Part shown: positions 42,998-62,170 of the stretch, one piece after another
How positions within the stretch are numbered: the stretch's first letter is position 1
Layout: each line of letters starts with the position of its first letter
Assembly: GCA_030998225.1 (NCBI GenBank)
Contig: JAPYXD010000419.1
Coordinates: 1-64,000 of the forward strand
Source: Diplolepis rosae
Taxonomy: Eukaryota > Arthropoda > Insecta > Hymenoptera > Diplolepididae
DNA length: 64,000 nucleotides
Direction: 5' to 3'
Notes under the pieces: model-generated
What the model was told of the DNA's origin: nothing
Databases searched by the model: none
What the model saw: only the letters and a program-made list of their open reading frames with translations
Program-made: the position numbers and the translations under genes

Positions 42998-43180
42998 TCT
43001 TGGCTTCAATGAAAGATAATATTTTAGAATTTATGTCGTATAATTTTCAGATTTTGAATAAAATTTTCCTAGGTCATGCAAAAAGTTGAAGTTGAGGTAG
43101 AGAATGTGAGAAAATCTTGAATTTTTTTTTAACTCCTCACGTGCTGTATTATTTTCAGAAGGTCAAAAAAATATTTGTTG
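42998..43180 (+). repeat. Foldback family B arm, part upstream of the provirus
   Basis: Matches 21660-21842 closely and continues at 62167-62323 after the provirus. Only the right arm of the foldback is present. It was the insertion target of the retroelement. Confidence 0.92.
43177..43180. other. Target-site duplication GTTG, left copy
   Basis: GTTG here and at 62167-62170 flank the LTRs. The empty relative at about 21838-21842 has the target once. Confidence 0.88.
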
Positions 43181-45337
43181 TGTTACGTGCGAGTCTATAA
43201 AATAAAATCTTTTTGCTGAACTAATGTCGGTATAAAATATTATACTCAATGCTGACATTAGTTCATGAGTTACAATGAAGCAAGTCTACGCTTGAATCGC
43301 TCGTAACCTGAGCCTTCCTGATAACCACCGCGACTCAACATTTCTGGGGTGGCGAGTTGGTTCGAGGCAAATGCGAGTGAAGAATGGGAGAGAGCAAAGT
43401 GTAAGAATGAGAGAGCGCGGGAAAGGTAGAAGTAGATCGAGATGCTATGTAACACGCTCGTCCCACCGCTACAAATAAGAGTAAGGAGAAGCGATTAAAA
43501 ATAATGTACGACTCGAAAGAAGTTTTCATGAGCGTCAAAATCCCAATTTATAAATTCCAGGACGATCAGTTATCCTCATTCAAAAACCTATGTAGCCATG
43601 TACGAGAGGCTTTTCGATATGGGTTCTGAATGGGATAACTTTTGCGAATCTAACTATGTTGCACGCATTGAAATTAATGTGACATGCACGTGTGTATATA
43701 TGTACATACATATGCATATATGTATGTGTACTGCATGCCTACCACACGAAAATCATCTCATGAATAAAAAAGAATGAACAAATAGGGAAGATGAAAGAAA
43801 TGGAAAAGAGATGTAAGGAATAGAATAGGAAAAAGGAGAACGAAAGAGAGAAGAGGGAGAGAGAGAGAGCTATCTCCCTGCAGCTCAAGCTAGCATCTCG
43901 CGTTAAAGCCATCTTTCTGCTTTTGCTTGCTTCCATCTTTCTGCTTTTGCTTGCTTCCATCTTTCGTCCGCCCAGGCACGCACCAAAGAAGGCAGATATA
44001 TGCATATATTTTACCCGATTCTATGACTGCCACGATCCGACTCTGCGCTCAGCGTAAGGTCCAGCACACACCTACCCCTTCCCGTACCCCGCACCCATCC
44101 AAGCCTAAATGCTTGCCGACTGACCTACCATAACAAAAGCCACGTGCTTTTAAGACATCAAATAAAATCCTCTGAACAATGGAATTGTTTCAGTAACAAT
44201 TTTCCTAATAACAATTAAAATTCAGACAAACTATAATATTTCAATCCAACCTGAATTAGGAGAAACTAAAAATCGTTTCTAAAATAATTAATGGATATGA
44301 ATCGAATGATAGTTGCGAGCCACTTCCTTTTGCTAAGATAGCAAGGATGAAGGTATCCAATAACACCTATGGGTCAGCAAAAGTCGGATTACTAAAATTC
44401 AGCATTCACATAGTTTCCCACGTACCCCTGCCACATTTATTTCATCCAATCCAAAACTCCTTAGCAAACAAAAATCCCTACCATGCTCACCGGGCGATGA
44501 GCTTAAGAGTTGGATCTAAACCAGGCAATTACGCAGTCTTCTAAGTGTCTTGATTAGATCTTGACCTTAGAATAATAAAGAAAATACTTTTCTTTTATCA
44601 TGCCCGTCTGCGGTCTAGATCGACAGTTCCTTCGCGATTCGTTAGTCGAGTAAAATCGTAAAATTTTTATCTAACGAGTATTTATTTATTTTTGGAATCG
44701 TGTCGGGCGGACGAAAAAACCCAAAAGTCTTCATCTAGACGGAAGCAAATTTATACTTGAATATATTCAAGTATATTTCAATCTTCGGCGGGCTAATTTA
44801 AAGTCCAAAATTCCTATTTGAAGGAACGACAAAAGCAGGTGGCGAAACGGTAATTTCTTTGGTGTGCGCATATTGTGCGCGACCGACCAATAAGACTCAA
44901 GTTGTGATTTCTTCGCAACAACAGGAAACCACTGCCCGGTCTAGGACGAATAAGGAGCCCAGGGGTAAACCTCTCTCTCTCTCCTAGTACTGGTAGAATT
45001 AGGAAAAACTCGATGTAAGGTATTGTTCTAATTATATGTATGTGTGTACCCCACATTTAATTTTTTTTTTCACCTGTTTGGAAAAATAAAAATTGGTAAT
45101 TTTTGAACTTATCCTTTCATTCAGCTTTATTTTCAAGAAAAAGGGGGTTTTCTTGTGCAAAGGGTATAGCCTCCTCAGTCAGAGGAGAGGGCAAATACGA
45201 TCCCAGATTAAAAACAAATTTTGGTTTACTAAATTTTAAATTTCCTAAGCTCAGAGTTTGGCAGTTTGGAGCCTCAAGCGGGCGAGTAATCGAACTTAAT
45301 ATTTCATTGTATTGGGTTTAGTTATTCGTACGTAACA
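43181..45337 (+). repeat. 5' LTR
   Basis: 2157 bp, TGTTACG...CGTAACA. Compared with the 3' LTR I see one substitution (the C/T in AAAAGCAGG near 44836), one (CT)2 difference at 44972-44985, and three homopolymer length differences. It contains two tandem 24-bp units around CTTTCTGCTTTTGCTTGC (43910-43957). It lacks ORFs with recognisable content; the small ORFs on both strands repeat exactly in the other LTR. It should carry the promoter and polyadenylation signals, but I could not pin a TATA box. Confidence 0.97.
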
Positions 45338-45343
45338 AACTGA

Positions 45344-45549: not shown

Positions 45550-46005
45550 GAATTCCCCTTTATGCTTTTCAGCAGAAGGTAAATTCTTAAATTTAGGCTT
45601 TTATGCTCTTTAGCAGAAAGAATAAATTTCGAACGTCAGTTTTATTCCATCTTTATTCCAATTTTCTTTTAATAGGAATTTACACTTATGCTCTTTAGCA
45701 GAGTGTCAATTCCAGAATTAACTCTTTTATGCTCTTTAGCAGAAAGCATTGATTCGAAAAAAGAAAATTATTTTTATTCCTAAAAATTGTGTTCTCGAGA
45801 ATTCCCCTTTATGCTTTTTAGCAGAAGGTAAATTCTTAAATTTAGGCTTTTCTGCTCTTTAGCAGAAAGAATAAATTTCGAACATCAATTTTATTTCAAA
45901 TCATCTCTTTCAACTCATTTTCGTGTAGGAATTACCCTTTATGCTTTTCAGCAGAAGGACAATTCCATAACTTGCGCTTTTATGCTCTTTAGCAGAAAGC
46001 TTAAG
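45550..46005 (+). repeat. Leader array of eight mini-hairpins in four paired units
   Basis: The motif TATGCTCTTTAGCAGA (variants CTTTTC, TTTTTA) occurs eight times, starting at 45561, 45602, 45687, 45728, 45810, 45851, 45940 and 45981. Within every pair the spacing is exactly 41 bases, and pairs recur every 123-130 bases. Each copy can form a small stem (TGCT/AGCA, or CTGCT/AGCAG in the sixth) with a CTTT-type loop. Its location just after the primer site suggests an RNA function such as packaging, dimerisation or translation control, which is an inference. Confidence 0.85.
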
Positions 46006-46033
46006 TTTAACGAAAAATTCTTTACCTTTCCTC

Positions 46034-46348
46034 ATGTTGCAACCTACCCCTAATAGAGATTGCAAACGCAAATCAAAGTCTCGAGCAGGAAGACAGGTCA
46101 GACAAAGAACAATTCAGCAATTAGAAGAATTAAAATCAATTTCTAACAATTTTGGGGATACGGTCCCCACTGCAACACCCGAGGCTCCAACCCAAACTTT
46201 CGACCCGCAGGAATTAGAAATCAGAGAAATAAATAATTTCGACGAATTTTCATTCTTTTTTGAAAATCTACTCAACAAGGCGGAAATTGACTTGAGGAAA
46301 TTCCAGCAGGCAAAACAAGAGTCTCAAGGAGCGTCCACTTCCAAATAA
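46034..46348 (+). CDS. Leader ORF 1, unknown 104-residue protein
   Basis: The ORF begins with an ATG right after the hairpin array. It has a basic N-terminus (DCKRKSKSRAGRQVRQRTIQ), an acidic middle (DPQELEIREINNFDEFSFFF) and a Gln/Ser-rich end. It is well formed and unlike the shadow ORFs. It lies between primer site and gag, where errantiviruses normally have untranslated leader. No family is recognised. It could be an accessory protein, an upstream ORF that regulates gag translation, or a first exon; a splice donor was not identified. Two further repeats and leader ORF 2 follow. Confidence 0.5.
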   Translation: MLQPTPNRDCKRKSKSRAGRQVRQRTIQQLEELKSISNNFGDTVPTATPEAPTQTFDPQELEIREINNFDEFSFFFENLLNKAEIDLRKFQQAKQESQGASTSK

Positions 46349-46433
46349 TAAGCTTGTTTAGCTCTCTATTCTCGACACACGTATATTGCACATTTCTTCC
46401 AACCCATTTAGTATACTCTACCATTATCATATA

Positions 46434-46775
46434 TACCGGTGGAAGGAGAATAATGTAACAGAGTTTTGATTGGGTTTTATTCAACCAAAATTCTAGTGGT
46501 TCTCTCGCTCTGAAGTACGTACGTTGAGTCACTGACTCTGTTGTCACCGTTGAGCGTTTGAATTAATTATTCCCCTTTTTCCATAGAGTAACGAGAGGAA
46601 AATTCAAATCCTAATTTCCCTTTTAATTTGAATCTTCTGAAAATTCTTCCGCTCTGTGGTACGTACGTTGAGTCATAGGCTCTGTTGTCCACGTCGAGCG
46701 TTTGAATACTCATTATTCTATGTCCTAGTTCTGACAAATTCAATCCAAGTAAACATCTAGTCGATCTTTATTGAA

Positions 46776-46828
<53 letters not shown>

Positions 46829-47128
46829 CATAACATATACCGGTGGAAGGAGAATGATGTAACAGAGTTTCGATTGAATCATTAATTCAATCAAAATCCT
46901 AGTGGTTCTCTCGCTCTGAAGTACGTACGTTGAGTCACTGACTCTGTTGTCACCGTTGAGCGATTGAATTGATTATTCACCTTTTTCCATAGAATAGGGA
47001 GAGGAAAATCCGAATTAGAAATTTCTGATTTGAATTTTCTTAGAATTTCGTCCCCTCTGTGGTACGTACGTTGAGTCATAGACTCTGTTGGCCACGTCGA
47101 GAGTTCGAATACTCCTTGTTCTATGTCC
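46434..47128 (+). repeat. Leader tandem duplication with four TGAGTCA sites
   Basis: 46434-46728 and 46838-47128 are two diverged copies (period 404) starting TACCGGTGGAAGGAGAAT. Each copy contains two related sub-blocks with GTACGTACGTTGAGTCA, giving four TGAGTCA sites at 46523, 46669, 46931 and 47072. TGAGTCA is the classic AP-1 (Jun/Fos type) recognition sequence. The leader is where the Drosophila gypsy element carries its insulator/enhancer, so a regulatory role is plausible. Antisense ORFs here are by-products of the repeat. Confidence 0.8.
46779..46826. repeat. (AT)n microsatellite between leader duplicates
   Basis: About 24 AT units separate the two leader duplicates. Confidence 0.95.
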
Positions 47129-47527
47129 TGTCAAAAGAATCCTACTCTTCTGGAACCACTCAAGAAGAAAAAGCGTTCCGGGAGAAAACACCTTTACACA
47201 CCCGCCCTATCAATAATTTATCGAAGCTTAATATTCCCTGTTAAGAAGAATATTCCTGTGTGTGCAGTTTTACCCGTTCGACGGACTGAAGTACCAGCAC
47301 CTGAAATCACACGCGAAATCCCTCAGGCCACAATAATAGATCTGGAAATCGGTGAGGCTCTTGAGCAAAGAAGACAAGCTTATAGAGAAGAGAATCATCC
47401 CTCACGCGAAATCAACCAAATTCCTATTGGAAGGGCCCTAAATAGGAATATTTCCGAGAACGAAATTTCTAACACAGAAATTATCGTATTGGACTCAGAA
47501 TCAGAAACAGGACAAATTTCAGAATAA
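47123..47527 (+). CDS. Leader ORF 2, unknown 134-residue protein
   Basis: The ORF starts with an ATG at the end of the second leader duplicate. A basic region (LKKKKRSGRKH) resembling a nuclear-localisation signal is followed by a hydrophobic/basic stretch, a middle with EIGEALEQRRQAYREE, and an acidic tail ending near IIVLDSESETGQISE. Composition and length look like a genuine small protein. No homologue is recognised. It ends about 360 bases before gag. It may be an accessory protein of the retroelement, or the product of a subgenomic or spliced RNA. Confidence 0.55.
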   Translation: MSCQKNPTLLEPLKKKKRSGRKHLYTPALSIIYRSLIFPVKKNIPVCAVLPVRRTEVPAPEITREIPQATIIDLEIGEALEQRRQAYREENHPSREINQIPIGRALNRNISENEISNTEIIVLDSESETGQISE

Positions 47528-47888
47528 TAAAATTTCTGCACCGTCGAAGTCTGATACGTCAGACAAGGTTCGATTTCACTCCTTTTGTTATCACTGGGTA
47601 ATTCCTAGTAAGTTCGACACCTTGAGTCTCTTGAATTGCTCCAGCTGGGATAATAAAGACGACATTTTTCCATTGTAAGCCTGAAAATTTCCAGATTTAA
47701 TAATAGGCCATTATCTAATCCCCTTTTTCTTCTACATATTTTCTTTTGTGTTGTTATATATATGTATTCTAATTTTTAGTAAGCACTGTACTCGTAAGTA
47801 TCCACACATAGGAACACAAAAACCTATAAACGTCTAAAACCTTTCAAAAATTTACGTCGAATTTTCCGGATCCTCAGCACATTTTAAA

Positions 47889-49205
47889 ATGTCGAACGAC
47901 AATCGAACCCGTAATCCTAGGGAGCCTATCGGTAACGACCCTAACGAATCAAGTACTGAAGCATACCCGAGTATCACTAATTCATTAACCGGACCCAACC
48001 CTAATATTGCGCCCCCTAATCAATCAATGAATTTAGATGCTAGTGCGGCTATGGCTTCGGTATTAGAGTGCATGACTCTTCAGCAAAGCACCTATCACAT
48101 ACCACAATTTGACGGTAAAAATCCTCCACTGAAGGAATTTTTACAGGACATCGCAAACGGCGCAGTATACATCACGGAATCCACGGAACCCGGTTTCATA
48201 AAGGTTGTTTTAAGTAAACTCAAGGGTGTCGCACGAGAAAGCGTTAGGGACAAAAGATTTAATCGGGTAAACGACTTAATGGCACATTTAAAAAAACGTT
48301 TCGCCCCTTCGAAGAAATATCAATGGTACTTCGAGTCTATCGTGAACCTAAGGATGAAACAAACGGAAACCGTAAGCGACTATTACGACCGGGAACAGGG
48401 TTTGCTGAGTGGGGCAAAACATGCCATCGAGGATAAGTATACACAGGTTCATTATGCCGGCACTCCTCATGAAATAAGTGAGAGCACCATCATGATGAAA
48501 CCAGTGGTGGACTGTGCACTAGACGCCTTCATTAAGGGCCTCCCGGACGAAATGTCTACCTTCGTGGACACCAGAAATCCGAGGGACCTTGGTGAAGCCC
48601 TCGAACATGCCCTCCACATAGAGGAAAGACTAAGACAAACGGAAAGAGTAAGGCCCTTCGCGTCTTCTTACCATATCATGCGGCAAAACGAGAAAATTCC
48701 GGAACGCGCGCGATCACCTAGCCCCTACACAAGACAAATGGTTAAACCAGATAAAGCTGAAAGGACAAAAGGCGAAGCTTCACCAGAAGTCTCCAACCTA
48801 CGCAATCCGACATCCCCACACCAACCATTTCACCAATATCCACCACAGTACCCTTCATACCCACCACAGTTCCCCTACTCTTATGCCCCACCTTACCCTC
48901 CAACTTACCAATATCCCTACTCATACCCACCCCTTCCACCTATGCCGCAGTACCCCTCTGAAGCACCGAACAGGAACGGTCACGGGAGTAATCAACCATG
49001 GCGCGGGTATGGTAGGCCGCCAGGAGCCATGACACCTCCTAGATCAACTTCACCAGGGCCTCCGGAGAATTTAAACTCCCAACAGGTTCGTCGTTCAGAC
49101 GCGGCAACGAACCAACCACACCGAGAGCGTCCCAAGGCAGTCCACTTCCAGGAGAGCTCAGTAGGATCTTTCGAACAAGATCCAAAACCGAAGACTCACC
49201 CGTAG
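47889..49205 (+). CDS. gag: Gag polyprotein
   Basis: 438 codons, with ATG in a fair context (TTAAAATGTCG). It is the structural capsid precursor. The capsid-type segment comprises IPQFDGKNPPLKEFLQDIA (residues about 74-92), then a region with RESVRDKRFNRVNDLMAHLKK and TVSDYYDREQGLLSGAK, the order typical of Ty3/Gypsy and errantivirus capsids. The C-terminal third is basic, then Pro/Tyr-rich (about 310-360) with two PPxY motifs (PPQY 318-321, PPTY 337-340). No CCHC zinc knuckle is visible; Arg-rich segments near the end may bind RNA instead. Gag stops 5 bases before the first in-frame Leu codon used as the nominal pol start, and pol is in the -1 frame. A decayed relative lies at 31130-32375. 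Confidence 0.95.
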   Translation: MSNDNRTRNPREPIGNDPNESSTEAYPSITNSLTGPNPNIAPPNQSMNLDASAAMASVLECMTLQQSTYHIPQFDGKNPPLKEFLQDIANGAVYITESTEPGFIKVVLSKLKGVARESVRDKRFNRVNDLMAHLKKRFAPSKKYQWYFESIVNLRMKQTETVSDYYDREQGLLSGAKHAIEDKYTQVHYAGTPHEISESTIMMKPVVDCALDAFIKGLPDEMSTFVDTRNPRDLGEALEHALHIEERLRQTERVRPFASSYHIMRQNEKIPERARSPSPYTRQMVKPDKAERTKGEASPEVSNLRNPTSPHQPFHQYPPQYPSYPPQFPYSYAPPYPPTYQYPYSYPPLPPMPQYPSEAPNRNGHGSNQPWRGYGRPPGAMTPPRSTSPGPPENLNSQQVRRSDAATNQPHRERPKAVHFQESSVGSFEQDPKPKTHP

Positions 49206-49210
49206 TTGAG

Positions 49211-52200
49211 TTGAGTGCCCCTGAATTCCGCAACAGTAAAGCTAGTTTTCTTGTGGACCCAGGTTCGGACGTTAATCTAATCAAACTGAGCACCTTGCGT
49301 CAAGAACTAATTCTTGACCCGAAGAGATCAATCCCGATCACCGGAATAACGAACCACCCCGTAATTACGATAGGCACTATTAACCTTTCAATACTTAACA
49401 CCCTAGTGGAATTCCATGTTGTGGAAAATAGTATCCCCATCTCACCAGATGGAATTCTCGGGAGACCTTATTTGAGGCAGGAACAGGCTCAAATTTCCTT
49501 CCGACACAATGCATTAGTAACCGCTTCCAACCCTATCACACCGATCCCTTTCATCGACCGGGAATCACAGGAAGCGAGGAAATCACTTAAAACCGAGATC
49601 AAACCTTTCTCTAGAATTTTAAAAATTAAGGCTAGAACAAGGCAACCCATTGCTATAAGCGTCACAAATCCAGAGGTTGCTGAGGGCTACCTGCCTAAAC
49701 TAGATACCCCCGAAGGGCTTTACCTTGGAGAGGCAGCAGTCTCAACGCACAATGGCGTCTGTCACGCAATCGCCATCAATACCACTGAAGACGACATAGA
49801 TATAGAAATTGCTCCCCAGGAGGTCATACCATTCGATTTCTGTACATTCCCCGGCGAAGAATCTTCTGACTCAGCACCCGAGTACTCTACCCTAGGCATA
49901 CTGGGACATCTGAGCTCTTATGCAGAGCGTGCCGAAAGAGTCAAAAGGAGCCTGCGCCTTTCTCATTTAAATGATGAAGAGAGGAACTACGTCCTCAGAT
50001 GGGCAGATGACTACGCTGATATTTTCCATCTAAATGGCGAGAAACTTAGCAGCACTCATCTGATCCAACACCGAATTCCAACACTGGACAATGAGGTGAT
50101 TGCAAAGAAGCAATATAGATACCCTCATGATGCAACAGACCAAGTCATTCTGCAGACCGAGAGGCAATACAATAGCGGAATTATTGGTGACTCTAAATCC
50201 CCTTACAATTCTCCACTTTGGATTGTTCCAAAAAAGCTCGACGCCTCGGGAGAAAAGAAGTGGAGAGTTGTTATTGATTTCAGAGCCCTTAACGAAAAGG
50301 TAATTGGGGATGCCTACCCCTTGCCCAACATCACAGATATTTTGGACCACTTGGGGAATGCACAGTACTTTTCTGTATTTGATCTGGCCAGTGGCTTCCA
50401 TCAAGTTGAAACACATCCCGAAGATCGATTGAAAACGGCGTTCTCGACACCCCGTGGACACTTTGAGTATCTGCGGATGCCAATGGGGATTAAAAATGCT
50501 CCTGCTACCTTCCAACGCCTCATGGACATCGTTTTGAAGGGCATGCATGGGACCGAAGTTTTTGTCTATCTGGATGACATTGTTATTCATTCAGAAACCT
50601 TAGAAGAACACGACGTAAAAGCCAGGAGACTATTCAATAGACTAAGAGAGGCGCATCTAAAGCTTCAACCGGACAAGTGCGAATTCTTACGAACCGAGGT
50701 GGCTTACCTGGGCCATATAATCGGCCGTGATGGAATGAAACCCAACCCCGCAAAGATAGCCGCTATTAGAAAATTTCCAAAACCGAGGACAGTTCGGGCT
50801 ATTCGACAATTCCTAGGCCTCTCAGGATACTATAGGAGATTTATAAAAGACTACGCGAAGCTAGCAAAACCCTTGTCCAACCTCCTAAAGAAGGACACAA
50901 AATGGGAATGGGGACGCTCACAACGAAAAAGTTTTCGAAAAATACGCAGATACCTCTGCAACGAACCTGTGCTCCAATACCCCGACTTTAACAAGACCTT
51001 TAAGCTAACCACAGATGCCTCTGAACATGCTGTCGGAGCTATGCTAACCCAAGAAAAGGATGGAGTAGATATGCCCATCGCCTACTTTTCCAAGGTGATG
51101 AATTCCTGCGAACAAAACTACTCGAAAGCAGAAAAGGAATGCCTGGCGGTATTGTATGCTGTTACGAGCTTCCGCCCATATTTGTACGGAAGGGAGTTCG
51201 TGCTGGCCTGCGACTACGAACCAGTTCACTGGATGACCTATATTAATAATCCAGGAGCAAGGTTGCTGCGATGGCGACTTAGACTCCAGGATTATCAATA
51301 TAAGTTTGAATATAAACAAGGGAAACTAAATAGGGGAGTTGAAGCCTTGTCAGGAAACCCTGTGGCTAACGAACAATACTCGGAATCTACTGACTCTACG
51401 GACTCCGACGATTCTGACAAACCTGATCAATCGTACGAATCCTCTTCACTCCCAAAACCTTCTGAAAACATCCAGAATTCCGTGGAAAATCCCTATAACA
51501 CCGGAAAAGTGTTGGTTATAACGCGCTCTGGAGCATCACGGGGAGAACCTAGTAAAGGTGAATCCCCCTCCACCAGTCAGGAGCCGTCAGGTTCCGCTGA
51601 ACACCCAACTCGAACGAGGAAACCCATTCAGACAAGGAACCAACCCACTTCTGGATCCAGTGTAAATTTTGCAAACAAAGGAAAACCTTCTGTACCCCGA
51701 TCCATCCCCTTCAACGCAGTAAGGACTAAACCCACTGTTTCTGCAAGACCGCCGACCTCAGCCGGAGCAATGCCTAAACGACGTGGAAGGCCAAGAAAGG
51801 ATTCGGCTCCCGAAAATCCCCAAGCAGCTCACGAATCCCAAAGTAAACCAAAAGCAACCAACCTTGACGAAAGTTGCATTGGTAAACGACTTTCGAGACG
51901 AAAAGGAATTAGTGAGGCCCCGGTGTTAAACGAAAACTCTTCCAGTGATCCATCGTCAGACGACGAGGACAGTGACGACTCCGACCCCCCAGTGTTTTGC
52001 GAATCCCGTAGTGTTTTACCGAACCTAAAGCCAATTCTAGTAGCAAAGACGGACATCACCGCCCCTAAAAGTGCGCCCCCTAGACTTCCGGGTCCAAGCC
52101 CTTGGTCAGCCCCACTACAAGACACTTACGTAGACGTTTACGTTGACGGAGCGTGCAGCTACAATGGACGTGGGGAACCAAGGGCGGGAATAGGAGTCTG

Positions 52201-54106
52201 GTTTGGACCCAACCATCCACTAAATGTTTCACGTCCCTCCCAGGGACGTCAAACAAACAACTCAGCTGAAATTGAGGCAGCAACAGTAGCAGCTCAACAG
52301 GCTCAAGAGGCTGGCATCAAGAAGCTAAGGATAAAGACTGATTCTAAGTTTCTAGTAAACAGTGCCACGGAATGGATTCCAAGATGGGAAGCAAACAACT
52401 GGAAAACATACGAGAATAAACCAGTTAGAAATCGATCTGAGTTTGAAAAGATGAAAACAGCCCTGGAACCCTTGGATGTGATTTGGGAACACGTTCCAAG
52501 CCACAAAGGAATCCCAGGAAACGAAATGGCCGATAAGCTAGCCAGAGAAGGGATTGAAGCCTCACCATCTACTGAGAACAAGGAAGAAGAGCTACTTCCC
52601 GAACGGATGATCGTTGATGTCCTCCCACAACCCCTGGACAGTGAAGACAGCAACGAAACCGATGAGGACACCCCCAGACAACACCAATCACAGAACAAAT
52701 TAAGAGAAGATCTACAGAAATCTTTCTCAAAGCTGGATAAATCAATGAAGAACCGAGGGCTCGAGAGCTCCAACATCGTTCATGAGTCTCTATGGTGGGA
52801 TCATGAAGATATGCAGGACGAATGTCGACCTCCGTGCACCTATGTCTCCGAAGGCGAAGAAGACCGAGAACTCCTGGAAAACTTAGAAGCTCTCGATCCC
52901 TGTGGAGAATATGACGACGTCGAATTCTCCAATAGAGTGAAAAACTTTTTGGAAAAATACGAAAAGGAAGTAAGCAGGGAAGCATGCACACCACAAGACT
53001 GGCAAATCGCAACAAGTTCCTCTACAAGCCAAGCAAAAACCTTAGGCGAACCTAGATCCACTGGGCAGATAACGAAGTCAACGGAATTCTCTGACAAAAA
53101 TTCCGGGGTGGCGAGGAAAAGCATGGTCCGATTTAAGGATGCCCCTGAAGAAATCGAATCCCCCTCACAGTCCCCAATAATTGGAAGACAGCCCCCTCGA
53201 AGATCCTTGCTTGCAACGCCAGCAGCCCCTGCAACGCCAGGAGCCAGATCAACGCCCTTCACAAGGACAGTCATCGACCCAGATGACAGCAGAAAAGACT
53301 CAATAGGAAGAACAGCAGGAATAAAACCAAGAAGACTGGAACAATCGAAACCATTTTACGAACCCGTCCAAGGTCCCATATCCCATCCTAGCTCCATCAT
53401 CGACCTCAAGATACCGTATGTGGACGACGCACCTACCTCTATCGGACCTCACCAGAATCTCTCAAATACAGGCCAAAAACCAATTAGCATCTGCACCGAT
53501 GAACCTAACGTCATCCACCAATGGACAGAACCTTTAACTTTCAGACATGACAATTATGCTCACTTTATATCCGAAGATTGCGAGCCTACGAACCCCATAG
53601 CAAAACTTCTTGTGGCTACCGAGCGTCTTGACCTACAAGACCTCTGGGGATGCCGCCCTAAGAAGGGACAAGTCCTCGTCACTCCGCACGGTCGACATAA
53701 GACATATTCCGTGGTCCTAAAAAGACGACATGTTGACAATGTCGACTGGAAGGATGTGGCGCAAGGACTAATGAACCTTCGAACTGCCTTAGAAAAGGAC
53801 AACCAGACCACCTGCCGTATGGCAAATTCAGGAGATTTGCTGGGATCGTTACCGCAAAACAAAATGACGGAGCTCGTGGCAGAAATATTTCGGGGTAGCA
53901 ACATTACTATTACTCTCTGCCACGGAAAAATCGAAGTTCCTCCCGTAGAAATCCGACCCAATATTATCGCCGAATATCACGGCAGCCTTATAGGCGGCCA
54001 TAAGGGCATTACAAAAACCTACCGCCGCATCAGAGAGCGATACACATGGCCTGGCTTACGAGACAGAAATCAGCGAGTTCATCCGAGGATGCAGAAGCTG
54101 CCTTGA
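49211..54106 (+). CDS. pol: Pol polyprotein with two RNase H domains
   Basis: The frame is -1 relative to gag and stays open upstream across at least the last 125 bases of gag, so expression by ribosomal frameshifting is likely. The TTG at 49211 is a convention, not a start. Domains (residues from 49211): retropepsin with FLVDPGSDVN (D16); RT about 300-530 with active site YLDD at 453-456; Gypsy RNase H with D602, E643, D668 and a degenerate end VEALSGN (E711); a Ser/Pro/Asp-rich linker about 720-965 with an AT-hook RGRP at 858-861; a cellular-type RNase H1 domain about 973-1118 with D979, E1020, D1044, H1098, D1108; a second linker; then the start of integrase with the two His of the zinc finger (YHGSLIGGHKG). 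The frame is broken near 54060, before the two Cys of that finger, and stops at 54106. At 1631 codons to that point it is unusually long. Confidence 0.93.
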   Translation: MSAPEFRNSKASFLVDPGSDVNLIKLSTLRQELILDPKRSIPITGITNHPVITIGTINLSILNTLVEFHVVENSIPISPDGILGRPYLRQEQAQISFRHNALVTASNPITPIPFIDRESQEARKSLKTEIKPFSRILKIKARTRQPIAISVTNPEVAEGYLPKLDTPEGLYLGEAAVSTHNGVCHAIAINTTEDDIDIEIAPQEVIPFDFCTFPGEESSDSAPEYSTLGILGHLSSYAERAERVKRSLRLSHLNDEERNYVLRWADDYADIFHLNGEKLSSTHLIQHRIPTLDNEVIAKKQYRYPHDATDQVILQTERQYNSGIIGDSKSPYNSPLWIVPKKLDASGEKKWRVVIDFRALNEKVIGDAYPLPNITDILDHLGNAQYFSVFDLASGFHQVETHPEDRLKTAFSTPRGHFEYLRMPMGIKNAPATFQRLMDIVLKGMHGTEVFVYLDDIVIHSETLEEHDVKARRLFNRLREAHLKLQPDKCEFLRTEVAYLGHIIGRDGMKPNPAKIAAIRKFPKPRTVRAIRQFLGLSGYYRRFIKDYAKLAKPLSNLLKKDTKWEWGRSQRKSFRKIRRYLCNEPVLQYPDFNKTFKLTTDASEHAVGAMLTQEKDGVDMPIAYFSKVMNSCEQNYSKAEKECLAVLYAVTSFRPYLYGREFVLACDYEPVHWMTYINNPGARLLRWRLRLQDYQYKFEYKQGKLNRGVEALSGNPVANEQYSESTDSTDSDDSDKPDQSYESSSLPKPSENIQNSVENPYNTGKVLVITRSGASRGEPSKGESPSTSQEPSGSAEHPTRTRKPIQTRNQPTSGSSVNFANKGKPSVPRSIPFNAVRTKPTVSARPPTSAGAMPKRRGRPRKDSAPENPQAAHESQSKPKATNLDESCIGKRLSRRKGISEAPVLNENSSSDPSSDDEDSDDSDPPVFCESRSVLPNLKPILVAKTDITAPKSAPPRLPGPSPWSAPLQDTYVDVYVDGACSYNGRGEPRAGIGVWFGPNHPLNVSRPSQGRQTNNSAEIEAATVAAQQAQEAGIKKLRIKTDSKFLVNSATEWIPRWEANNWKTYENKPVRNRSEFEKMKTALEPLDVIWEHVPSHKGIPGNEMADKLAREGIEASPSTENKEEELLPERMIVDVLPQPLDSEDSNETDEDTPRQHQSQNKLREDLQKSFSKLDKSMKNRGLESSNIVHESLWWDHEDMQDECRPPCTYVSEGEEDRELLENLEALDPCGEYDDVEFSNRVKNFLEKYEKEVSREACTPQDWQIATSSSTSQAKTLGEPRSTGQITKSTEFSDKNSGVARKSMVRFKDAPEEIESPSQSPIIGRQPPRRSLLATPAAPATPGARSTPFTRTVIDPDDSRKDSIGRTAGIKPRRLEQSKPFYEPVQGPISHPSSIIDLKIPYVDDAPTSIGPHQNLSNTGQKPISICTDEPNVIHQWTEPLTFRHDNYAHFISEDCEPTNPIAKLLVATERLDLQDLWGCRPKKGQVLVTPHGRHKTYSVVLKRRHVDNVDWKDVAQGLMNLRTALEKDNQTTCRMANSGDLLGSLPQNKMTELVAEIFRGSNITITLCHGKIEVPPVEIRPNIIAEYHGSLIGGHKGITKTYRRIRERYTWPGLRDRNQRVHPRMQKLP
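52118..52570 (+). CDS. Captured RNase H1-type domain within pol
   Basis: This subregion of pol encodes a complete RNase HI fold: VDVYVDGACSYNG, then GEPRAGIGVWFGPNHPLNVS, QTNNSAEIEAA, IKTDSKF, WIPRWEANNWK, and HVPSHKGIPGNEMADKLARE. The catalytic D-E-D-D plus the active-site His are all present. The spacings (41, 24 and 64 residues between the acidic residues) are the same as in human RNase H1 (D145, E186, D210, D274). It is much closer to eukaryotic cellular RNase H1 than to the Gypsy RNase H that precedes it in the same polyprotein. The likely role is removal of genomic RNA from the RNA-DNA hybrid during reverse transcription. The hybrid-binding N-terminal domain of cellular RNase H1 is not seen. 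Confidence 0.92.
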
Positions 54107-54983
54107 ACAGAAACTCATCCGAGCTCGTACCCGCGAGCCAATGCTCATCACTGACACCCCTGCTGAGCCATTCGAGAAGGTATCACTCGATACTGTCGGA
54201 AAATTGCCCACAACACCAAACGGGAACAGACACATCTTGACAATGCAGGATAATTTCAGCAAGTACTGCATTGCAGTTCCCATACCAGACTTGAAAACAA
54301 CTACCATTGCCCACGCAGTTGCAACAACACTCTTCTCCCAATATGGCGCGCCTAGATATATTCTAACAGACAGGGGAGGGAGTTTTATTAGCAAATTGAT
54401 GAAACACCTAGAAAGATTATTTAACGTCAAGCAACTCACCACTTCCGGGTACCGACCACAAACTAATGGATCACTCGAGAGAAGCCATATTGTATTGACG
54501 GATTACATAAAGCACTATGCTGACGATTATGACGACTGGGATCGATTGCTCCCTTTCGCCATGTTCGCATATAATACGTCGGTACACGAGGCTACGAACT
54601 TTACACCCTACGAGTTAGTTTTCGAGCGAGTCGCCAGGACACCCAGCTCGTTTCCTCAGGGTACAGAACTCGAAACCTATGGATCCTACCTACGCGACCT
54701 AATAGTAAGAATAAGCGAAATCCAGAAGATTGCCCACAAGAATCTCATCAAAGCGAAATCTCGCTCGAAAGAGCAATATGACAAGAAAACTCGGCCACTA
54801 AACGCGAAAATCGGAGATACGGTTTACGCCCTTAAGGAAATTAGGGACGGGAAATTCGACAGTCGAGCCACAGGACCGTACGCCGTCGCCGGTTTCACAG
54901 AAAATAATAATGTTATTCTGGAAACAGAGGACGGCGAACGGATCATGAAACACAAAGACAAACTCCTGCTTGCGCACTGTTAG
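54063..54983 (+). pseudogene. pol: Integrase, downstream part, out of frame with pol
   Basis: From about 54063 the integrase coding sequence is in a different frame from the upstream pol, consistent with a one-base indel near 54060. This part holds the zinc-finger Cys pair (GCRSC), the catalytic core and the C-terminal domain. In the numbering of the ATG at 54141, the catalytic residues are D17, D77 and E113, with the classic 35-residue D-E gap, followed by WDRLLPFAMFAYNTS. A GPY/F-type module (ATGPYAVAGF) sits near the end. All catalytic residues are intact, so the break is the only visible defect. The stop is at 54981-54983. In its present form no full integrase can be made without a frameshift. 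Confidence 0.92.
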
Positions 54984-55108
54984 AAAACCTGCGATTAAGG
55001 GAAGAAAACCCGAGGAAGAATATGCATTATTTAGATCCCATGAGGTTCCAACCTAATAATTTTTCTCACGGTAAAGCAAATAGAGCTCCGGCATTCTAAA
55101 AGTATGAA

Positions 55109-55327
55109 ATGCATATCCTTTCTCGAGGCAGTGCTATGCCAGCTGTGAAGAAAAAACTAATGCTCCTCCTTTCCAGATTCCGAATTTCAATGACAAAGAT
55201 GGGATGTCGATGGCTTGCCTTTTTGTTACCTCTTATCACCACCAGCCAAGGGAATCACGAAGACACATTCCGGGTTACCCCACTCAAGAGTAGTAAGGAG
55301 TGTACTATGAATACCTGGGGACCATAA
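55109..55327 (+). pseudogene. env: Env leader: signal peptide segment, separate frame
   Basis: A 72-codon ORF carries the Env start: a basic N-region, a hydrophobic core CRWLAFLLPLITTSQG that looks like a signal peptide, then the first mature residues up to TPLKSSK. After that the frame deviates from the long env ORF that starts at 55300. In the decayed 16-kb relative the same segments lie in one frame, so here a one-base indel near 55295 separates them. A TTCTAAAAG just upstream (about 55093-55101) could serve as an env splice acceptor. This is inferred, not shown. Confidence 0.75.
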
Positions 55328-57321
55328 AGTGGACAACCAGTACCTGGAGGATCACCATCTTCATGGACATCAACAAAATCCAGAACCCACTATCATCCTA
55401 TAAACACAATATGAACAGCTTAGCCGCACATTGCCAACCAGGATACGAGGAACACTGCCACCAAGTCATCGCCAATCATGCCCTTGCATCCAAGCTTAAT
55501 CTGGCCGAAGGGCTCCAAAGAGAACTTATGAGGGAAACAACCATGATGGAGCAGCGAGCCGAAAAACTCCTTCCCTCTCACCTACCAAAAGCAATGCGAA
55601 GACGACGAGCGACTCCACTACTAGGTTTCTTGGGTGGAATCATTGGACCTGTAGCCGGGCTCCTGACCTACGACGATGGTCAGATGATCGAGGCAAAAAT
55701 CGAAGAATTGAACGAAGCACAGACCAACATTTCGCACCTAGTAGGGCAACAGACCCACTTGGTCAGGTCCCAACTAGAAAGGATGCACAAACAAGCTCAA
55801 CAGCATCAGGAGAAGCTCGAATCACTCAAGAACGAACTCACCAATCTTAATCGGGAACTTGGTCAGGACACCAGGAAGATCACTGAGCTGAAATATACCG
55901 AATCCCTAACCCGAGTCCTGCGAACGAACGAAGCAGCTGTAGGGGAATATATAAGAGCAATCGAAAAAATTTTGAATGTCCTTCACGCCGCCAGACAAAA
56001 GCAGATGCATCCAGGACTATTGACTTCAAGGCAACTGGAATTAATCTACCGCGACATCCAGGATCATCGCCCAGAGATGGTCTTCCCAGTAACCGGACCT
56101 GCTGTAGACATCGAGGAGCTGACCAGCATATCCACCGTCACCCCCATATACAGAAGGGGAGTCCTTAAAATATTGCTGGATATACCGCTGTTGGGAAGAG
56201 CTAACTACCTGGTGTATCAACTACATCCACTTCCAGTGCCTCAAGCCATCTTAGGAAACAACTCTGGGAAGGTATATGTACTACCAAAATTCTCCCATAT
56301 CGCTGTAGAAGAATCACAGAGGACCTACGTCCTAATGAACCATCAAGATGTTGCTGCTTGTACTGAACTATCGTCTTGCAGAATTTGCAAGAGAAACCTA
56401 CCTATCAATGAGAATGGGAAGTTTAGAACCTGCGAGGCAGAGCTTCTGTTGAGTCCCTCATTATCCACCTTCCGAATTTGCGACGTCCAAATAACATACA
56501 AGGACCAACTCGACTGGAAATTATTAAGCACCCTGGGCGGATGGTTATACTCTCTCCAAGAACCAATTATTGCTACAATAGTTTGCCTTCACCAGAACAG
56601 CAACCAGACCGAACTAAGAGGAACAGGCATAGTTCAACTAGCTCCAGGATGCGACCTCCGAATAAAAGGGAGAATGCTGCCAGGCACGATAAATCAAAAG
56701 GGGCGGACCGAAATCATCTATACTCCGCCGCTTCACCTAAACCTCTCCGAATTGTCATCAGCTGTGCAGGAACTTCAAGGATACACACCTGTAGGTAAAT
56801 CAATGCCTGATCAGACGAAGGAAATCACGACCGAGGATAGAGCCTTTGAAGCCAGCGACAAGTCCTTGGAATACCTAGAACAACAGCTGTATGAGCTCAG
56901 CTTGGCCCGACGAGCAGGAAACAATCAAACAAAACTGATCCACGGGTCTTACCTAGGCCTAGGAATCATATCTACCGGACTGCTGATATACCTTATCTAT
57001 ACCAGAATACTGAAAAAGTTTATTGCCTGCCATCCACGACTCTCACCAAGAATGAAAGCTGATCAAGATGTCAACTTTAGTACCATCAAAGGAAAACAGC
57101 AGAACATCCCCACGACGGCAGAGAACAATCAGACGATCAGCCCCAGTCTTGCATCTGTCGACGAGAAGTTACAAAGGAGGGATTCCGGAAATTCTACAAC
57201 ACAGACATCCAAAGCCTCGACTGACCTGATCAGTGCTGCCATGCCTTCAGTGACGCCGAGGGAGAAATCATCCATGACTGCGGTAGTCCAACTACCACCC
57301 CAAAAACTTCAGCCGGCTTAA
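55300..57321 (+). CDS. env: Envelope fusion glycoprotein
   Basis: 673 codons, but the ATG at 55300 is probably not the native start (see leader ORF at 55109). The protein would insert in the host membrane and mediate fusion. Visible features: a furin-type site MRRRR (residues 99-103), directly followed by a Gly/Leu-rich fusion peptide (TPLLGFLGGIIGPVAGLL, 105-122), a long heptad-rich coiled coil (about 128-195), a Cys-containing ectodomain with CRICKRN (about 364-370), and a TM anchor (LGLGIISTGLLIYLIY, about 553-568) with a cytoplasmic tail of about 105 residues. Cleavage site, fusion peptide and coiled coil in this order match errantivirus Env and the related baculovirus F type. The tail is Ser/Thr-rich. 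The ORF ends 2.7 kb before the 3' LTR. Confidence 0.93.
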   Translation: MYYEYLGTIKWTTSTWRITIFMDINKIQNPLSSYKHNMNSLAAHCQPGYEEHCHQVIANHALASKLNLAEGLQRELMRETTMMEQRAEKLLPSHLPKAMRRRRATPLLGFLGGIIGPVAGLLTYDDGQMIEAKIEELNEAQTNISHLVGQQTHLVRSQLERMHKQAQQHQEKLESLKNELTNLNRELGQDTRKITELKYTESLTRVLRTNEAAVGEYIRAIEKILNVLHAARQKQMHPGLLTSRQLELIYRDIQDHRPEMVFPVTGPAVDIEELTSISTVTPIYRRGVLKILLDIPLLGRANYLVYQLHPLPVPQAILGNNSGKVYVLPKFSHIAVEESQRTYVLMNHQDVAACTELSSCRICKRNLPINENGKFRTCEAELLLSPSLSTFRICDVQITYKDQLDWKLLSTLGGWLYSLQEPIIATIVCLHQNSNQTELRGTGIVQLAPGCDLRIKGRMLPGTINQKGRTEIIYTPPLHLNLSELSSAVQELQGYTPVGKSMPDQTKEITTEDRAFEASDKSLEYLEQQLYELSLARRAGNNQTKLIHGSYLGLGIISTGLLIYLIYTRILKKFIACHPRLSPRMKADQDVNFSTIKGKQQNIPTTAENNQTISPSLASVDEKLQRRDSGNSTTQTSKASTDLISAAMPSVTPREKSSMTAVVQLPPQKLQPA

Positions 57322-57767
57322 CTTGCGCAAGGAATAATAGACATATTTCAGACTACTAAGAACTAAGTATTGGGAACTATCGCTCCTTCTTCCAGCGCTG
57401 CTTATCTCAACCTCACCTTTCCCTGACCATCACAGGTTGAATGCCTGAAACTCCAAACCCTAGCATCCCAATTCACCTTACTTATCCTACTTATTACGAT
57501 TATTATCCATTCCGTTTTTTTTTATTATTATTTTTTCTTATCTACTTATCACCCTATTTACCTTATTGATATAATTATTATAATGGGTATCAAGTTGTAT
57601 CTAGGTATTATAAAGGAAGGGAAGCCAATTGATTGTTGGACTACAGTCAACTTTGTTCAATCGAAATATCGTGCAAATTAGATTTAACGATTTTATTCAT
57701 AGACTGGCCTCGCGTATAAATGCAATCTGTGTATTTATAATATCATTGCTACAACTATTATTATTAT
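57322..57767. other. Env 3' flank, no ORF
   Basis: T-rich untranslated DNA between env and the end of the antisense gene. Nothing else is recognised. Confidence 0.6.
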
Positions 57768-57773
57768 TTTATT
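57768..57773 (-). terminator. Polyadenylation signal of the antisense gene
   Basis: AATAAA on the minus strand, about 125 bases downstream of the antisense stop codon. The expected cleavage site lies before env is reached (the env stop is at 57321), so the convergent genes would not overlap. Confidence 0.6.
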
Positions 57774-57895
57774 TTCTTTTTTCTTTTTTTCTCTTCTTTC
57801 CTTTTTTCTCTTTCTCTCTTTCTCTAACATTGTGACCCAGCAATACTCGGGTTGGCGCAGGAAGTTGAAGTTAGTAGCAACCCGCTCCTTATTGG

Positions 57896-59460
57896 CTAAC
57901 GCCAACTCTCCCAATGCTGCTCCAGACCAACTGCATAACGCTGGAAATTATTAATCATGAGAATTGTTTTTCTCTCTCGTTGTAACACTACCTCAAGGAA
58001 GGAAGAAGAGTATCACTTACCAGCTCCCAGTTATACGAGACACGCGGTTCGTCGGGGCCCAGAAAGTAATGGCGCTGGACCCACACCAAGGTGTAGGCCT
58101 TATTACGAGGTTGATACCCAGTGCGCGGAGGGATACCAGGAAGGTCCTTGAAGATACTAAAGAAAAGAAGAAAGAGGAAAAAAAAAAGGGAGGGGGATGA
58201 ATATGTGCACGTATGTATGTGATTTCTCACGCGAACAGCCATGGTTGCGCGTTAACACATCTAAGTGATTATATGTTGCTATACTAGTATAATGACAGGA
58301 AAGGCAACTAACCACGTCGAAATCGGAGGACTGGAGCGACCCGCCCCTTGCCACATCTCCATGCTCGACACCTCCAAGTCCGCCACCATAGGATGACGAT
58401 AAGGATACTAGAAAGAAAAAGAAGGGGGGGGGGGCATCAATTAAGGATATATATATGCGTAGAGAGAATCAAACTAAGATCTTCTAAGGGAAAAGAGCGT
58501 AAAAGTAAATATTCGGCAACATGCATCACAACAACGAATAAGCAACATGAAGACGGAGTACCTACCTTGGCCCAATACCCTCTACAAAAGTAGGCGCCCT
58601 CTGACTCCATCCAGGTGTATTCCTGGATCCATCTCGACCTAAGGAAGGGCTTTGGCGGAGCCAGGTGTCGGAGACGACCCTCATATCCCCAAGGTGCGGT
58701 AAAAAGAGGTCGCGCCGGCGCCAACGACCAATCGCCAAAGATTATCATAAATCTGAAACAAACAAACAGACGTTCTAAACTCGGTTGCTTTAGGTTACAA
58801 ATATAATTCACAGGTAGCCAAACATTGGGAAAGAGAACTGTATCCCTTAGATGCAGTCGCCACAAACCTCAGTACCATCTCGCAAAAAAAAAAAAAATAA
58901 AAAAAATAATAATAATAATATTTTTGATTTTTGGAAAATAAAAAGTTAAGGGTGGCGGTTCCCCTCCACAGGGGAGGATAATATAAACGGAAAATGAAAA
59001 GGAAGACAATTATAAAAAAAAATATAAAAAAGCAATAGAAAAATATACCATTTACAAGGTAAACTCCAGTTTGCTAAAACGGTATTCTTTCAAGTTATGA
59101 ATAAATCTCCGTTTGTATATATATGTCTAGATTTTCATCAATCTGTTTTGCATAATTCCACACTGTTTAAAAGATTTTATTCACGTCAAAAGAAAGAGGC
59201 TGAATGTGTCAATTTGGAAAGAATAAATAGAATTTTTCTATCAAAATGCACAGTTAAATATAGCAAAAAGGGGAAAAATAGTAATGCAGGACTCACCCAT
59301 CTCTTGGTGATCCTCCCAGGGAGGCGGCCTTCTGATGAGCCAGGACTAGGGGCAGAAGACTGGAGGGTGGTGGTTTCCTGAGCCTCCGGACTTCACCCTC
59401 CAACGATTGGTCGACCTTCCCCAACAGGCCTTGCAACAATGCAACCTTAGAAGTCGACAT
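57896..59460 (-). CDS. Antisense five-exon gene inside the provirus, 208-residue unknown protein
   Basis: Minus-strand exons: 59460-59297 (164 nt, from ATG), 58752-58566 (187), 58407-58313 (95), 58156-58021 (136), 57940-57896 (45, with TAG). They total 627 nt. Introns are 544, 158, 156 and 80 bp, all GT-AG. Donors are GTGAGT, GTAGGT, GTTAGT, GTAAGT. Acceptors are TTTCAG, TTCTAG, TTTTAG, TTCCAG, three with clear pyrimidine tracts. Phases are 2, 0, 2, 0 and agree at all four junctions, which is improbable by chance. The product has a Leu-rich helical N-terminus (VALLQGLLGKVDQSLEGEV), then Trp/Arg/Pro-rich segments (WGYEGRLRHLAPPKPF; WIQEYTWMESEGAYFC; TLVWVQRHYFLGPDEP) and ends HWESWR. No signal peptide or TM segment. 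No family is recognised. Sense-strand purine tracts at 58160-58200 and 58411-58434 are its intronic pyrimidine tracts. Further 5' exons cannot be excluded. Confidence 0.75.
58957..58980. other. GC hairpin in intron 1 of the antisense gene
   Basis: CCCCTCCACAGGGG can fold as a five-base stem within otherwise AT-rich intronic DNA. The significance is unknown. Confidence 0.35.
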
Positions 59461-60003
59461 CCCGTTTCCTCTTTTTCGCTGATGTTCTGTTTTCACTCCT
59501 CTTCTCACCAATTTTTCACAACTTAGCCCGCACTGAAACTCCTGGTTAGCCACTGCACACTGGTCTCACTACCGCGACGCGCGAATGACTCGGATCAACG
59601 ATTAAAATTGTAATGAACGACTGACGAAAAGTGGGTGGTCAAGAGCAGCATACCTTATGGGACTTCAGCCTCTCTTATAATTATGATGAGGGGGGGGGGG
59701 GGGAGCTGCTCACTCCAGCTTCCTGCCTATATCATTTCTGAGAAGTCCAATGCGATAGGAAGCAAACGACAAAATATGTCTTCACGGCACCATACGTGTA
59801 GAACAAATATTTTTAAAAATAAGACCATTGCAAGGGAAGTCTTTTTTTTTCTTTTCTCTTCTCTCTCCTCTCTTTCCTAAATAGATATAAAGAAAAGGTA
59901 CGGACGCACGATGCCACCTGAAAGCATGGAATGAATGCAGTTATGCTTGACTCGAACCACCCTAGTTTGTCGGGGACGAAAACATAAAAATTCCGGTGTG
60001 GTT
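59461..60003. other. Region between antisense ATG and 3' LTR
   Basis: It contains the presumed 5' leader/promoter of the antisense gene and a 14-base G run at 59690-59703 within a purine stretch. Immediately before the 3' LTR the sequence is CCGGTGTGGTT, not the purine tract expected for plus-strand priming. No ORF is recognised. Confidence 0.5.
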
Positions 60004-62166
60004 TGTTACGTGCGAGTCTATAAAATAAAATCTTTTTGCTGAACTAATGTCGGTATAAAATATTATACTCAATGCTGACATTAGTTCATGAGTTACAATG
60101 AAGCAAGTCTACGCTTGAATCGCTCGTAACCTGAGCCTTCCTGATAACCACCGCGACTCAACATTTCTGGGGTGGCGAGTTGGTTCGAGGCAAATGCGAG
60201 TGAAGAATGGGAGAGAGCAAAGTGTAAGAATGAGAGAGCGCGGGAAAGGTAGAAGTAGATCGAGATGCTATGTAACACGCTCGTCCCACCGCTACAAATA
60301 AGAGTAAGGAGAAGCGATTAAAAATAATGTACGACTCGAAAGAAGTTTTCATGAGCGTCAAAATCCCAATTTATAAATTCCAGGACGATCAGTTATCCTC
60401 ATTCAAAACCTATGTAGCCATGTACGAGAGGCTTTTCGATATGGGTTCTGAATGGGATAACTTTTGCGAATCTAACTATGTTGCACGCATTGAAATTAAT
60501 GTGACATGCACGTGTGTATATATGTACATACATATGCATATATGTATGTGTACTGCATGCCTACCACACGAAAATCATCTCATGAATAAAAAAGAATGAA
60601 CAAATAGGGAAGATGAAAGAAATGGAAAAGAGATGTAAGGAATAGAATAGGAAAAAGGAGAACGAAAGAGAGAAGAGGGAGAGAGAGAGAGCTATCTCCC
60701 TGCAGCTCAAGCTAGCATCTCGCGTTAAAGCCATCTTTCTGCTTTTGCTTGCTTCCATCTTTCTGCTTTTGCTTGCTTCCATCTTTCGTCCGCCCAGGCA
60801 CGCACCAAAGAAGGCAGATATATGCATATATTTTACCCGATTCTATGACTGCCACGATCCGACTCTGCGCTCAGCGTAAGGTCCAGCACACACCTACCCC
60901 TTCCCGTACCCCGCACCCATCCAAGCCTAAATGCTTGCCGACTGACCTACCATAACAAAAGCCACGTGCTTTTAAGACATCAAATAAAATCCTCTGAACA
61001 ATGGAATTGTTTCAGTAACAATTTTCCTAATAACAATTAAAATTCAGACAAACTATAATATTTCAATCCAACCTGAATTAGGAGAAACTAAAAATCGTTT
61101 CTAAAATAATTAATGGATATGAATCGAATGATAGTTGCGAGCCACTTCCTTTTGCTAAGATAGCAAGGATGAAGGTATCCAATAACACCTATGGGTCAGC
61201 AAAAGTCGGATTACTAAAATTCAGCATTCACATAGTTTCCCACGTACCCCTGCCACATTTATTTCATCCAATCCAAAACTCCTTAGCAAACAAAAATCCC
61301 TACCATGCTCACCGGGCGATGAGCTTAAGAGTTGGATCTAAACCAGGCAATTACGCAGTCTTCTAAGTGTCTTGATTAGATCTTGACCTTAGAATAATAA
61401 AGAAAATACTTTTCTTTTATCATGCCCGTCTGCGGTCTAGATCGACAGTTCCTTCGCGATTCGTTAGTCGAGTAAAATCGTAAAATTTTTATCTAACGAG
61501 TATTTATTTATTTTTGGAATCGTGTCGGGCGGACGAAAAAACCCAAAAGTCTTCATCTAGACGGAAGCAAATTTATACTTGAATATATTCAAGTATATTT
61601 CAATCTTCGGCGGGCTAATTTAAAGTCCAAAATTCCTATTTGAAGGAACGACAAAAGTAGGTGGCGAAACGGTAATTTCTTTGGTGTGCGCATATTGTGC
61701 GCGACCGACCAATAAGACTCAAGTTGTGATTTCTTCGCAACAACAGGAAACCACTGCCCGGTCTAGGACGAATAAGGAGCCCAGGGGTAAACCTCTCTCT
61801 CTCTCTCTCCTAGTACTGGTAGAATTAGGAAAAACTCGATGTAAGGTATTGTTCTAATTATATGTATGTGTGTACCCCACATTTAATTTTTTTTTTCACC
61901 TGTTTGGAAAAAATAAAAATTGGTAATTTTTGAACTTATCCTTTCATTCAGCTTTATTTTCAAGAAAAAGGGGGTTTTCTTGTGCAAAGGGTATAGCCTC
62001 CTCAGTCAGAGGAGAGGGCAAATACGATCCCAGATTAAAAACAAATTTTGGTTTACTAAATTTTTTAAATTTCCTAAGCTCAGAGTTTGGCAGTTTGGAG
62101 CCTCAAGCGGGCGAGTAATCGAACTTAATATTTCATTGTATTGGGTTTAGTTATTCGTACGTAACA
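60004..62166 (+). repeat. 3' LTR
   Basis: 2163 bp, the same ends as the 5' LTR. The 6-bp length difference is fully explained by one A-run (-1), a CT repeat (+4), an A-run (+1) and a T-run (+2). It would provide the polyadenylation site of the genomic RNA and, read backwards, could also promote the antisense gene. Confidence 0.97.
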
Positions 62167-62170
62167 GTTG
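62167..62170. other. Target-site duplication GTTG, right copy
   Basis: Matches 43177-43180 on the other side of the provirus. Confidence 0.88.

Follow-up and report, generated by a model that had tools for sequence, protein, structure and literature searches.

An LTR retroelement carries, between its env gene and its 3' LTR and on the opposite strand, what appears to be a five-exon protein-coding gene. Comparison with related copies in the same genome leads us to read it as a resident accessory gene of the element that would yield a spliced mRNA from the integrated provirus, a reading to which we assign a probability of roughly 0.78. Its frame and splice sites are intact in many near copies, its coding constraint and intron positions can be followed into strongly diverged ones, and in several loci it sits within a segment that is far more diverged than the env and LTR sequences on either side.

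Gene model and host element

In the window, as we call the whole 64,000-nt stretch of DNA that was analysed, the gene occupies the minus strand between the env stop (57321) and the 3' LTR start (60004). As delimited by the spliced model and by comparison of copies, exon 1 opens with an ATG (59460-59297, 164 nt) and is followed by exon 2 (58752-58566, 187 nt), exon 3 (58407-58313, 95 nt), exon 4 (58156-58021, 136 nt) and exon 5, which ends in TAG (57940-57896, 45 nt). The sum, 164+187+95+136+45 = 627 nt, is 208 codons plus the stop, joined in phase. The four introns (58753..59296, 544 nt; 58408..58565, 158 nt; 58157..58312, 156 nt; 57941..58020, 80 nt) are every one GT...AG, with junction phases 2, 0, 2 and 0. 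A putative poly(A) signal of the gene, AATAAA, lies on the same strand at 57697-57692, 198 nt beyond the stop. An initial annotation made from the letters of this stretch had proposed five minus-strand exons with in-phase GT-AG introns of 544, 158, 156 and 80 bp, an ATG, a stop and an AATAAA, and our analysis reproduces that model exactly. Upstream of exon 1, comparison with the far copies picks out conserved blocks at 59510-59761 and 59914-60003; the minus-strand region 59461..59761, with blocks common to the group C copies introduced below, is a candidate 5' UTR or promoter.

The surrounding element extends from 43181 to 62166 (18,986 bp) and contains gag, pol and an F-type env, all on the plus strand. 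Its 5' LTR (43181..45337, 2157 bp, TGTTACG...CGTAACA) and 3' LTR (60004..62166, 2163 bp, with the start as read in this analysis) differ by 1 substitution and 4 gap openings across 2,164 aligned positions; judged by that single substitution the element appears very young, as had been claimed for it. It is flanked by an identical 4-base target-site duplication, GTTG, at 43177..43180 on the left and 62167..62170 on the right, and its empty target site is represented in the same window by a repeat copy at 21656-21995. Further copies of the repeat that received the element occupy 20704-21995, the stretch that ends with this empty-site copy. Elsewhere in the window, positions 1-2420 hold an array of repeats that run in either orientation, are about 81-90% similar and are offset in steps of about 111 bp.

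A gag-like ORF of 438 aa (47889..49205) matches Pfam Retrotrans_gag at E=5e-5 and 23.8 bits, slightly below the curated cut-off of 24.1. The pol ORF of 1631 aa (49211..54106) has Pfam matches to reverse transcriptase (RT), RNase H, a second RNase H and an H2C2 zinc domain, and the integrase core (54141..54983; Pfam rve, E=7e-11) lies in a separate frame in the window copy. The second RNase H match (PF00075, residues 973-1115) is separate from the RT-linked one; a pol layout with two RNase H domains is found in plant Tat elements and vertebrate retroviruses. The env ORF of 673 aa (55300..57321) is Baculovirus-F-like (Pfam Baculo_F, E=2e-35). Between the 5' LTR and gag, the leader at 45510-47129 contains several direct-repeat families with copies of 47-140 nt at spacings of about 125 and about 400 nt. 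Gag, RT/RNase H/integrase and a Baculo_F env are accordingly all present in errantivirus-like fashion, gag just below its cut-off and integrase in its separate frame, together with the LTR pair and the 4-bp target-site duplication, a duplication length that is a feature of the errantivirus family. By domains and layout we assign the element to the env-bearing Ty3/gypsy-type LTR elements.

Copies of the gene in the genome

Searching the 757.7-Mb genome with the region of the gene gave at least 66 matches, around which 39 loci were fetched. Exon matches occur in 38 of these, and the remaining one (L039) matches in intron 1 only. Groups A and B comprise 28 near copies (L001-L028), with the window copy counted among them as L001; ten farther loci make up group C (L029-L035) and group D (L036-L038).

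Both the complete frame and the eight splice sites are intact in 12 of the 28 A and B copies, window included (L001-L005, L007, L008, L013, L015, L016, L021 and L022). One more, L006, has an intact frame and a changed first donor, and the other 15 are broken by stops, frame-breaking indels or deletions. Among the nearest 11 copies (L001-L008 and L021-L023) nine are intact; a deletion in L023 takes the last part of exon 2 along with intron 2 and exon 3. The random stops and indels without frame conservation that the initial annotation had set against its gene are therefore not what the near copies display, and the diverged lineages retain protein-level constraint, visible in dN/dS and in codon-position bias. 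The AATAAA is found in the same alignment column in four of five other aligned A and B copies (L013, L014, L015 and L027), while the fifth, L020, has AATAAG there. It is absent at that place from all five aligned C copies, four of which have no AATAAA or ATTAAA anywhere in the stretch; L034 has one elsewhere.

In groups C and D, DNA similarity to the window is concentrated mainly in blocks that correspond to exons. When the entire region serves as the query, exons 2 and 3 emerge as separate matches in L029, L031, L034 and L035, and these blocks end no more than 14 bp from the exon ends, except in L034 and L035, where the exon 2 block stops short at its outer end. As a counter-case, L030 and L033 each have a match that spans intron 2. 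Intron 1 gives no match in any of the seven C loci when the window region is the query. Spliced alignment, by an aligner that gave a slight bonus to introns at reference junctions, places introns at the same codon and phase across the ten C and D loci in 9/10 (intron 2), 10/10 (intron 3) and 7/10 (intron 4) cases, although the exon following intron 3 is unconvincing in L030. Most of exon 1 is recognised in L030, L031, L032 and L035 alone, and its beginning in L029 and L033. Over exons 2-5 the amino-acid identity to the window is 69% for L029, and for L037 it is 54%. These two alone are open through exons 2-5, and the other eight of the ten have a frameshift or stop there. Because the C and D loci are mostly decayed, the constraint seen in them would be a record of history and not of present function.

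Evidence for coding and selection

Several signals point to the annotated frame as the one that has been preserved. In exon 2 it has the highest amino-acid identity of the six frames in all four comparisons made. Changes are weighted toward the third codon position: at positions 1, 2 and 3 they number 33, 34 and 71 against L029 (chi-square p = 4e-5) and 57, 46 and 85 against L037 (p = 0.0016). Each of the three sense frames of exon 2 in the window has 1-2 stops, and against L029 their amino-acid identity is 0.40-0.63, versus 0.69 in the gene frame. The longest open stretches in the region measure 143 codons antisense and 117 sense. To judge from these comparisons, the five-exon antisense gene is more than a product of chance.

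Substitution rates suggest that the protein was what selection acted on. Five A-C pairs, covering five of the seven C copies, have dS of 1.7-2.3, dN of 0.22-0.26 and dN/dS of 0.10-0.16, ratios that are rough because dS is close to saturation. The pair L036-L037 gives dN/dS of 0.08 at dS 2.9, and for L001-L037 dN is 0.39 with dS past estimation. Within groups the ratio is 0.25-0.30, post-insertion decay included. Measured against the window, the intact B copies L013 and L015 have dN/dS of 0.29 and 0.18. In all, the ratio was computable for 12 of 14 pairs and lies between 0.08 and 0.30 in every one. Because silent divergence is near saturation and dN between groups is low, the gene appears to be both old and kept, and purifying selection appears to have maintained the five-exon frame over the diverged copies, with intron positions conserved.

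Comparison of exons with introns gives a similar picture in the three intact B copies, where exon and intron divergence is 4.8 vs 8.0%, 4.5 vs 9.4% and 5.1 vs 10.0% (p = 0.016, 2e-4 and 5e-4). Among 10 young copies, variable sites number 4/627 in exons versus 32/938 in introns. This contrast is not robust: it is carried by two ambiguous intron clusters, and p is 0.15 when these are left out.

Element linkage and exchange of the post-env segment

The gene is associated with element sequence. It adjoins the pre-LTR sequence in 27 of the 28 A and B loci and has env on its opposite side in 24. Six of the seven C loci run into an LTR start, and the seventh, L034, is linked through env, with no LTR within its fetched stretch. 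Inside the three D stretches there is no match to the window env, pre-LTR sequence or LTR start. In wider flanks, L036 sits between two LTR-start-like sequences (TGTTACGAGCG) that match one another at 84% over 184 bp; its gene is antisense to both, with exon 2 about 480 bp from the nearer one. On one side of L037 we find an LTR end and leader, exon 4 lying about 1.7 kb past the leader match and antisense to the leader. At L042/L043, two same-orientation LTR-start-like sequences enclose a D-type gene region, with a leader match after the lower LTR, a layout that appears to be a tandem or composite arrangement. Separately, L046 and L048, on contigs other than C428, contain near full-length COX1 matches that are probably nuclear copies of mitochondrial DNA. 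The host genome looks like that of an insect, and its COX1 (L047) looks hymenopteran.

Within group C the gene and its surroundings have diverged to very different degrees. Close homology to the window stops at 57323, two bases beyond the env stop, in L031, L032 and L034, and at 57102 in L029, L030 and L033; in the six C loci having an LTR it picks up again at 59914 or 59946. Identity to the window is 78-94% for env and 88-94% for the initial 480 bp of the LTR across the C loci, while in some of them the exons lying between a close env and LTR start are 67-88% identical. The discrepancy is clearest in L029 and L034, where the 3' portion of env shares 93-94% identity with the window (and the first 300 bp of the L029 LTR share 93%), despite which local alignments of exons 2-4 reach only 67-87%. 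In several loci the post-env cassette thus appears much older in divergence than the backbone that carries it. Because close env and LTR sequences flank strongly diverged exons in these loci, the segment at 57324..59945, delimited by the boundaries of close homology to the C copies, behaves as a swappable module that exists in A and C types; for its swaps, template switching between co-packaged relatives seems the best account.

Predicted product

The predicted product is a 24-kDa, basic (pI 9.6), Trp-rich protein with no membrane-like segment. It has no family match in Pfam (E<=10), NCBIfam or PHROGs; neither TRP28 (PF04195; Pfam, E<=10) nor a bZIP domain (Pfam) is detected in it. Among PDB sequences two weak hits (E 0.41 and 0.46) were taken as chance, and a second PDB search gave none. 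An alignment of the product searched against 5.8 billion proteins returned four unnamed ENA hits (P0001-P0004), all of them exon 2 or exon 4 read through into flanking sequence, whose source assemblies may derive from the host species itself. With exon 2 as the sole query, none of nine candidates from the same set scored, and collections of viral contigs and genome contigs yielded no relative of the product. These searches gave no named relative, curated family or solved structure for it, and the proposal that it belongs to no recognised family stands across Pfam, NCBIfam, PHROGs, PDB sequences and the protein and contig collections.

Alternative explanations

The same gene could have begun as a host gene that was picked up in reverse and is carried as passive or recently acquired cargo without a function for the element. 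A captured genomic gene would be expected to look like this five-exon structure, the product matches no viral or other family, and the D loci, whose own stretches match neither the window env nor the LTR start, leave room for a non-element origin of that group. We consider such a capture unlikely, though deserving of real weight, because the gene is old and kept, as its near-saturated silent sites and low dN between groups suggest; because it is linked to elements through the pre-LTR sequence in groups A and B, the LTR start in group C and env in L034; and because LTR parts appear in the wider flanks of L036 and L037. Moreover, the DNA-level genome search, in which the best candidates only were scored, gave no match assignable to a separate host locus. 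The sharp module boundaries at 57323 and 59914/59946 in several C loci might instead mark a nested insert, either a mobile element of greater age or another virus's gene, trapped within this one in antisense orientation. This we regard as improbable: no repeat pair of at least 40 nt (seed of 20 bases) flanks the cassette, and the cassettes that are exchanged are homologous to one another, a pattern more in keeping with template switching than with insertion.

Two further explanations dispense with the protein. LTR elements can have antisense transcripts that do not code for protein, according to the accessible part of PMC7264820, and minus-strand RNA would pair with the sense genome, so conservation might serve a spliced regulatory or dsRNA-forming transcript in which the frame is incidental. 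The codon-position bias, the low dN/dS in all 12 computable pairs and the superiority of one frame among six make this very improbable. Lower still is the chance that the model was stitched together from fortuitous ORFs, or that a sense-strand function constrains the exons. GT and AG sites are plentiful in AT-rich DNA and the region holds long open stretches on both strands, as given above, but in several C loci the blocks of conservation fall on the exons, and the sense frames of exon 2 contain stops and score below the gene frame in amino-acid identity. We therefore retain the resident accessory gene as our preferred reading.

Proposed expression and significance

If the gene is a resident of the element, the sense genomic RNA would carry it as a reverse complement whose splice sites the spliceosome would not read, and its introns would thereby pass intact through packaging and reverse transcription. 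Such survival of introns follows from known retroviral biology, and globin vectors make use of reversed intron-containing cassettes. Once the provirus is integrated, antisense transcription would be driven by a promoter lying within 59461-60003 or the 3' LTR, and the minus-strand mRNA would be spliced four times and polyadenylated near 57692. The introns would tie protein production to nuclear transcription of integrated DNA. We give even odds to the product being a nuclear protein that regulates either the element or a host response; a nuclear regulatory role seems the most likely of its possible roles by analogy with GENE23 of Grande, a protein said to be about 23 kDa, and with HBZ of HTLV, together with the size and charge of the product.

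Retroelements normally lose introns each cycle. A fuller picture, to which we give somewhat less than even odds, is of a natural, long-maintained multi-intron gene whose reversed orientation lets it stay for good in a genome that passes through an RNA stage, and whose A and C cassettes have been swapped between similar env-LTR backbones. If true, a four-intron gene kept through many cycles would make reverse orientation a workable natural route for keeping introns. The introns would restrict the protein to cells holding an integrated, nuclear-transcribed provirus, as might suit a provirus-only switch or an exclusion factor. The swapping of modules would resemble that of serotype-determining genes, and modular exchange between backbones hints that the specificity of the protein matters. 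The element would also offer a system for testing the roles of antisense accessory genes, which are debated for HTLV and for plant elements.

Relation to known systems

Engineered retroviral vectors provide a precedent for the proposed mechanism, since reversed intron-containing cassettes are described in the available text as keeping their introns through the RNA stage (PMC13148933); by contrast, the gene in the window is natural, and apparently old and maintained. The element itself resembles insect endogenous retroviruses and errantiviruses with F-type Env in its gag-pol-env layout, Baculo_F-like Env and LTRs, as these are portrayed in the accessible portions of PMC12992720 and PMC13172572, which mention no antisense accessory gene. 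It differs from them in its 19-kb length, 2.2-kb LTRs, second RNase H in pol and antisense accessory gene.

The initial annotation had likened the gene to the antisense gene of HTLV-1. As an analogy this is fair, in that HBZ/APH is likewise an antisense gene at the proviral 3' end and has spliced forms, but HBZ, on the part of the account available, is a bZIP factor transcribed from the 3' LTR (PMC10186651), whereas the gene in the window occupies a region of its own with five coding exons, and its product has no detected domain, bZIP or other. Closer in layout, as far as the accessible descriptions go, are the plant genes of Grande and Retand. They belong to the antisense ORFs termed aORF-3R of Ty3/gypsy elements, reported from maize Grande (gene23), rice RIRE2, Silene Retand and the fungal Boty of Botrytis in the sections available of PMC7264820 and PMC11963269; there the Grande protein is given as nuclear and, according to the review, as transcribed from a promoter upstream of the gene. 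Like them, our gene is antisense to gag-pol, lies between pol/env and the 3' LTR, is conserved across copies and has no clear relatives. Unlike them, on the same partial descriptions, it has four introns where they are described as ORFs, it is separated from pol by an F-type env, its product is without TRP28 (the domain of Retand), and its host is probably an animal instead of a plant or fungus.

The word 'intron' has no occurrences in the main text of PMC7264820, PMC11963269 or PMC10186651, and the accessible portions of the open-access literature, PMC6431247 included, gave us no description of an LTR element with an antisense coding gene of several introns, though one may still be in print. 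Antisense accessory ORFs in plants and a fungus, and spliced antisense genes in deltaretroviruses, are already known; as far as those sources extend, the four-intron structure is what this element adds to them.
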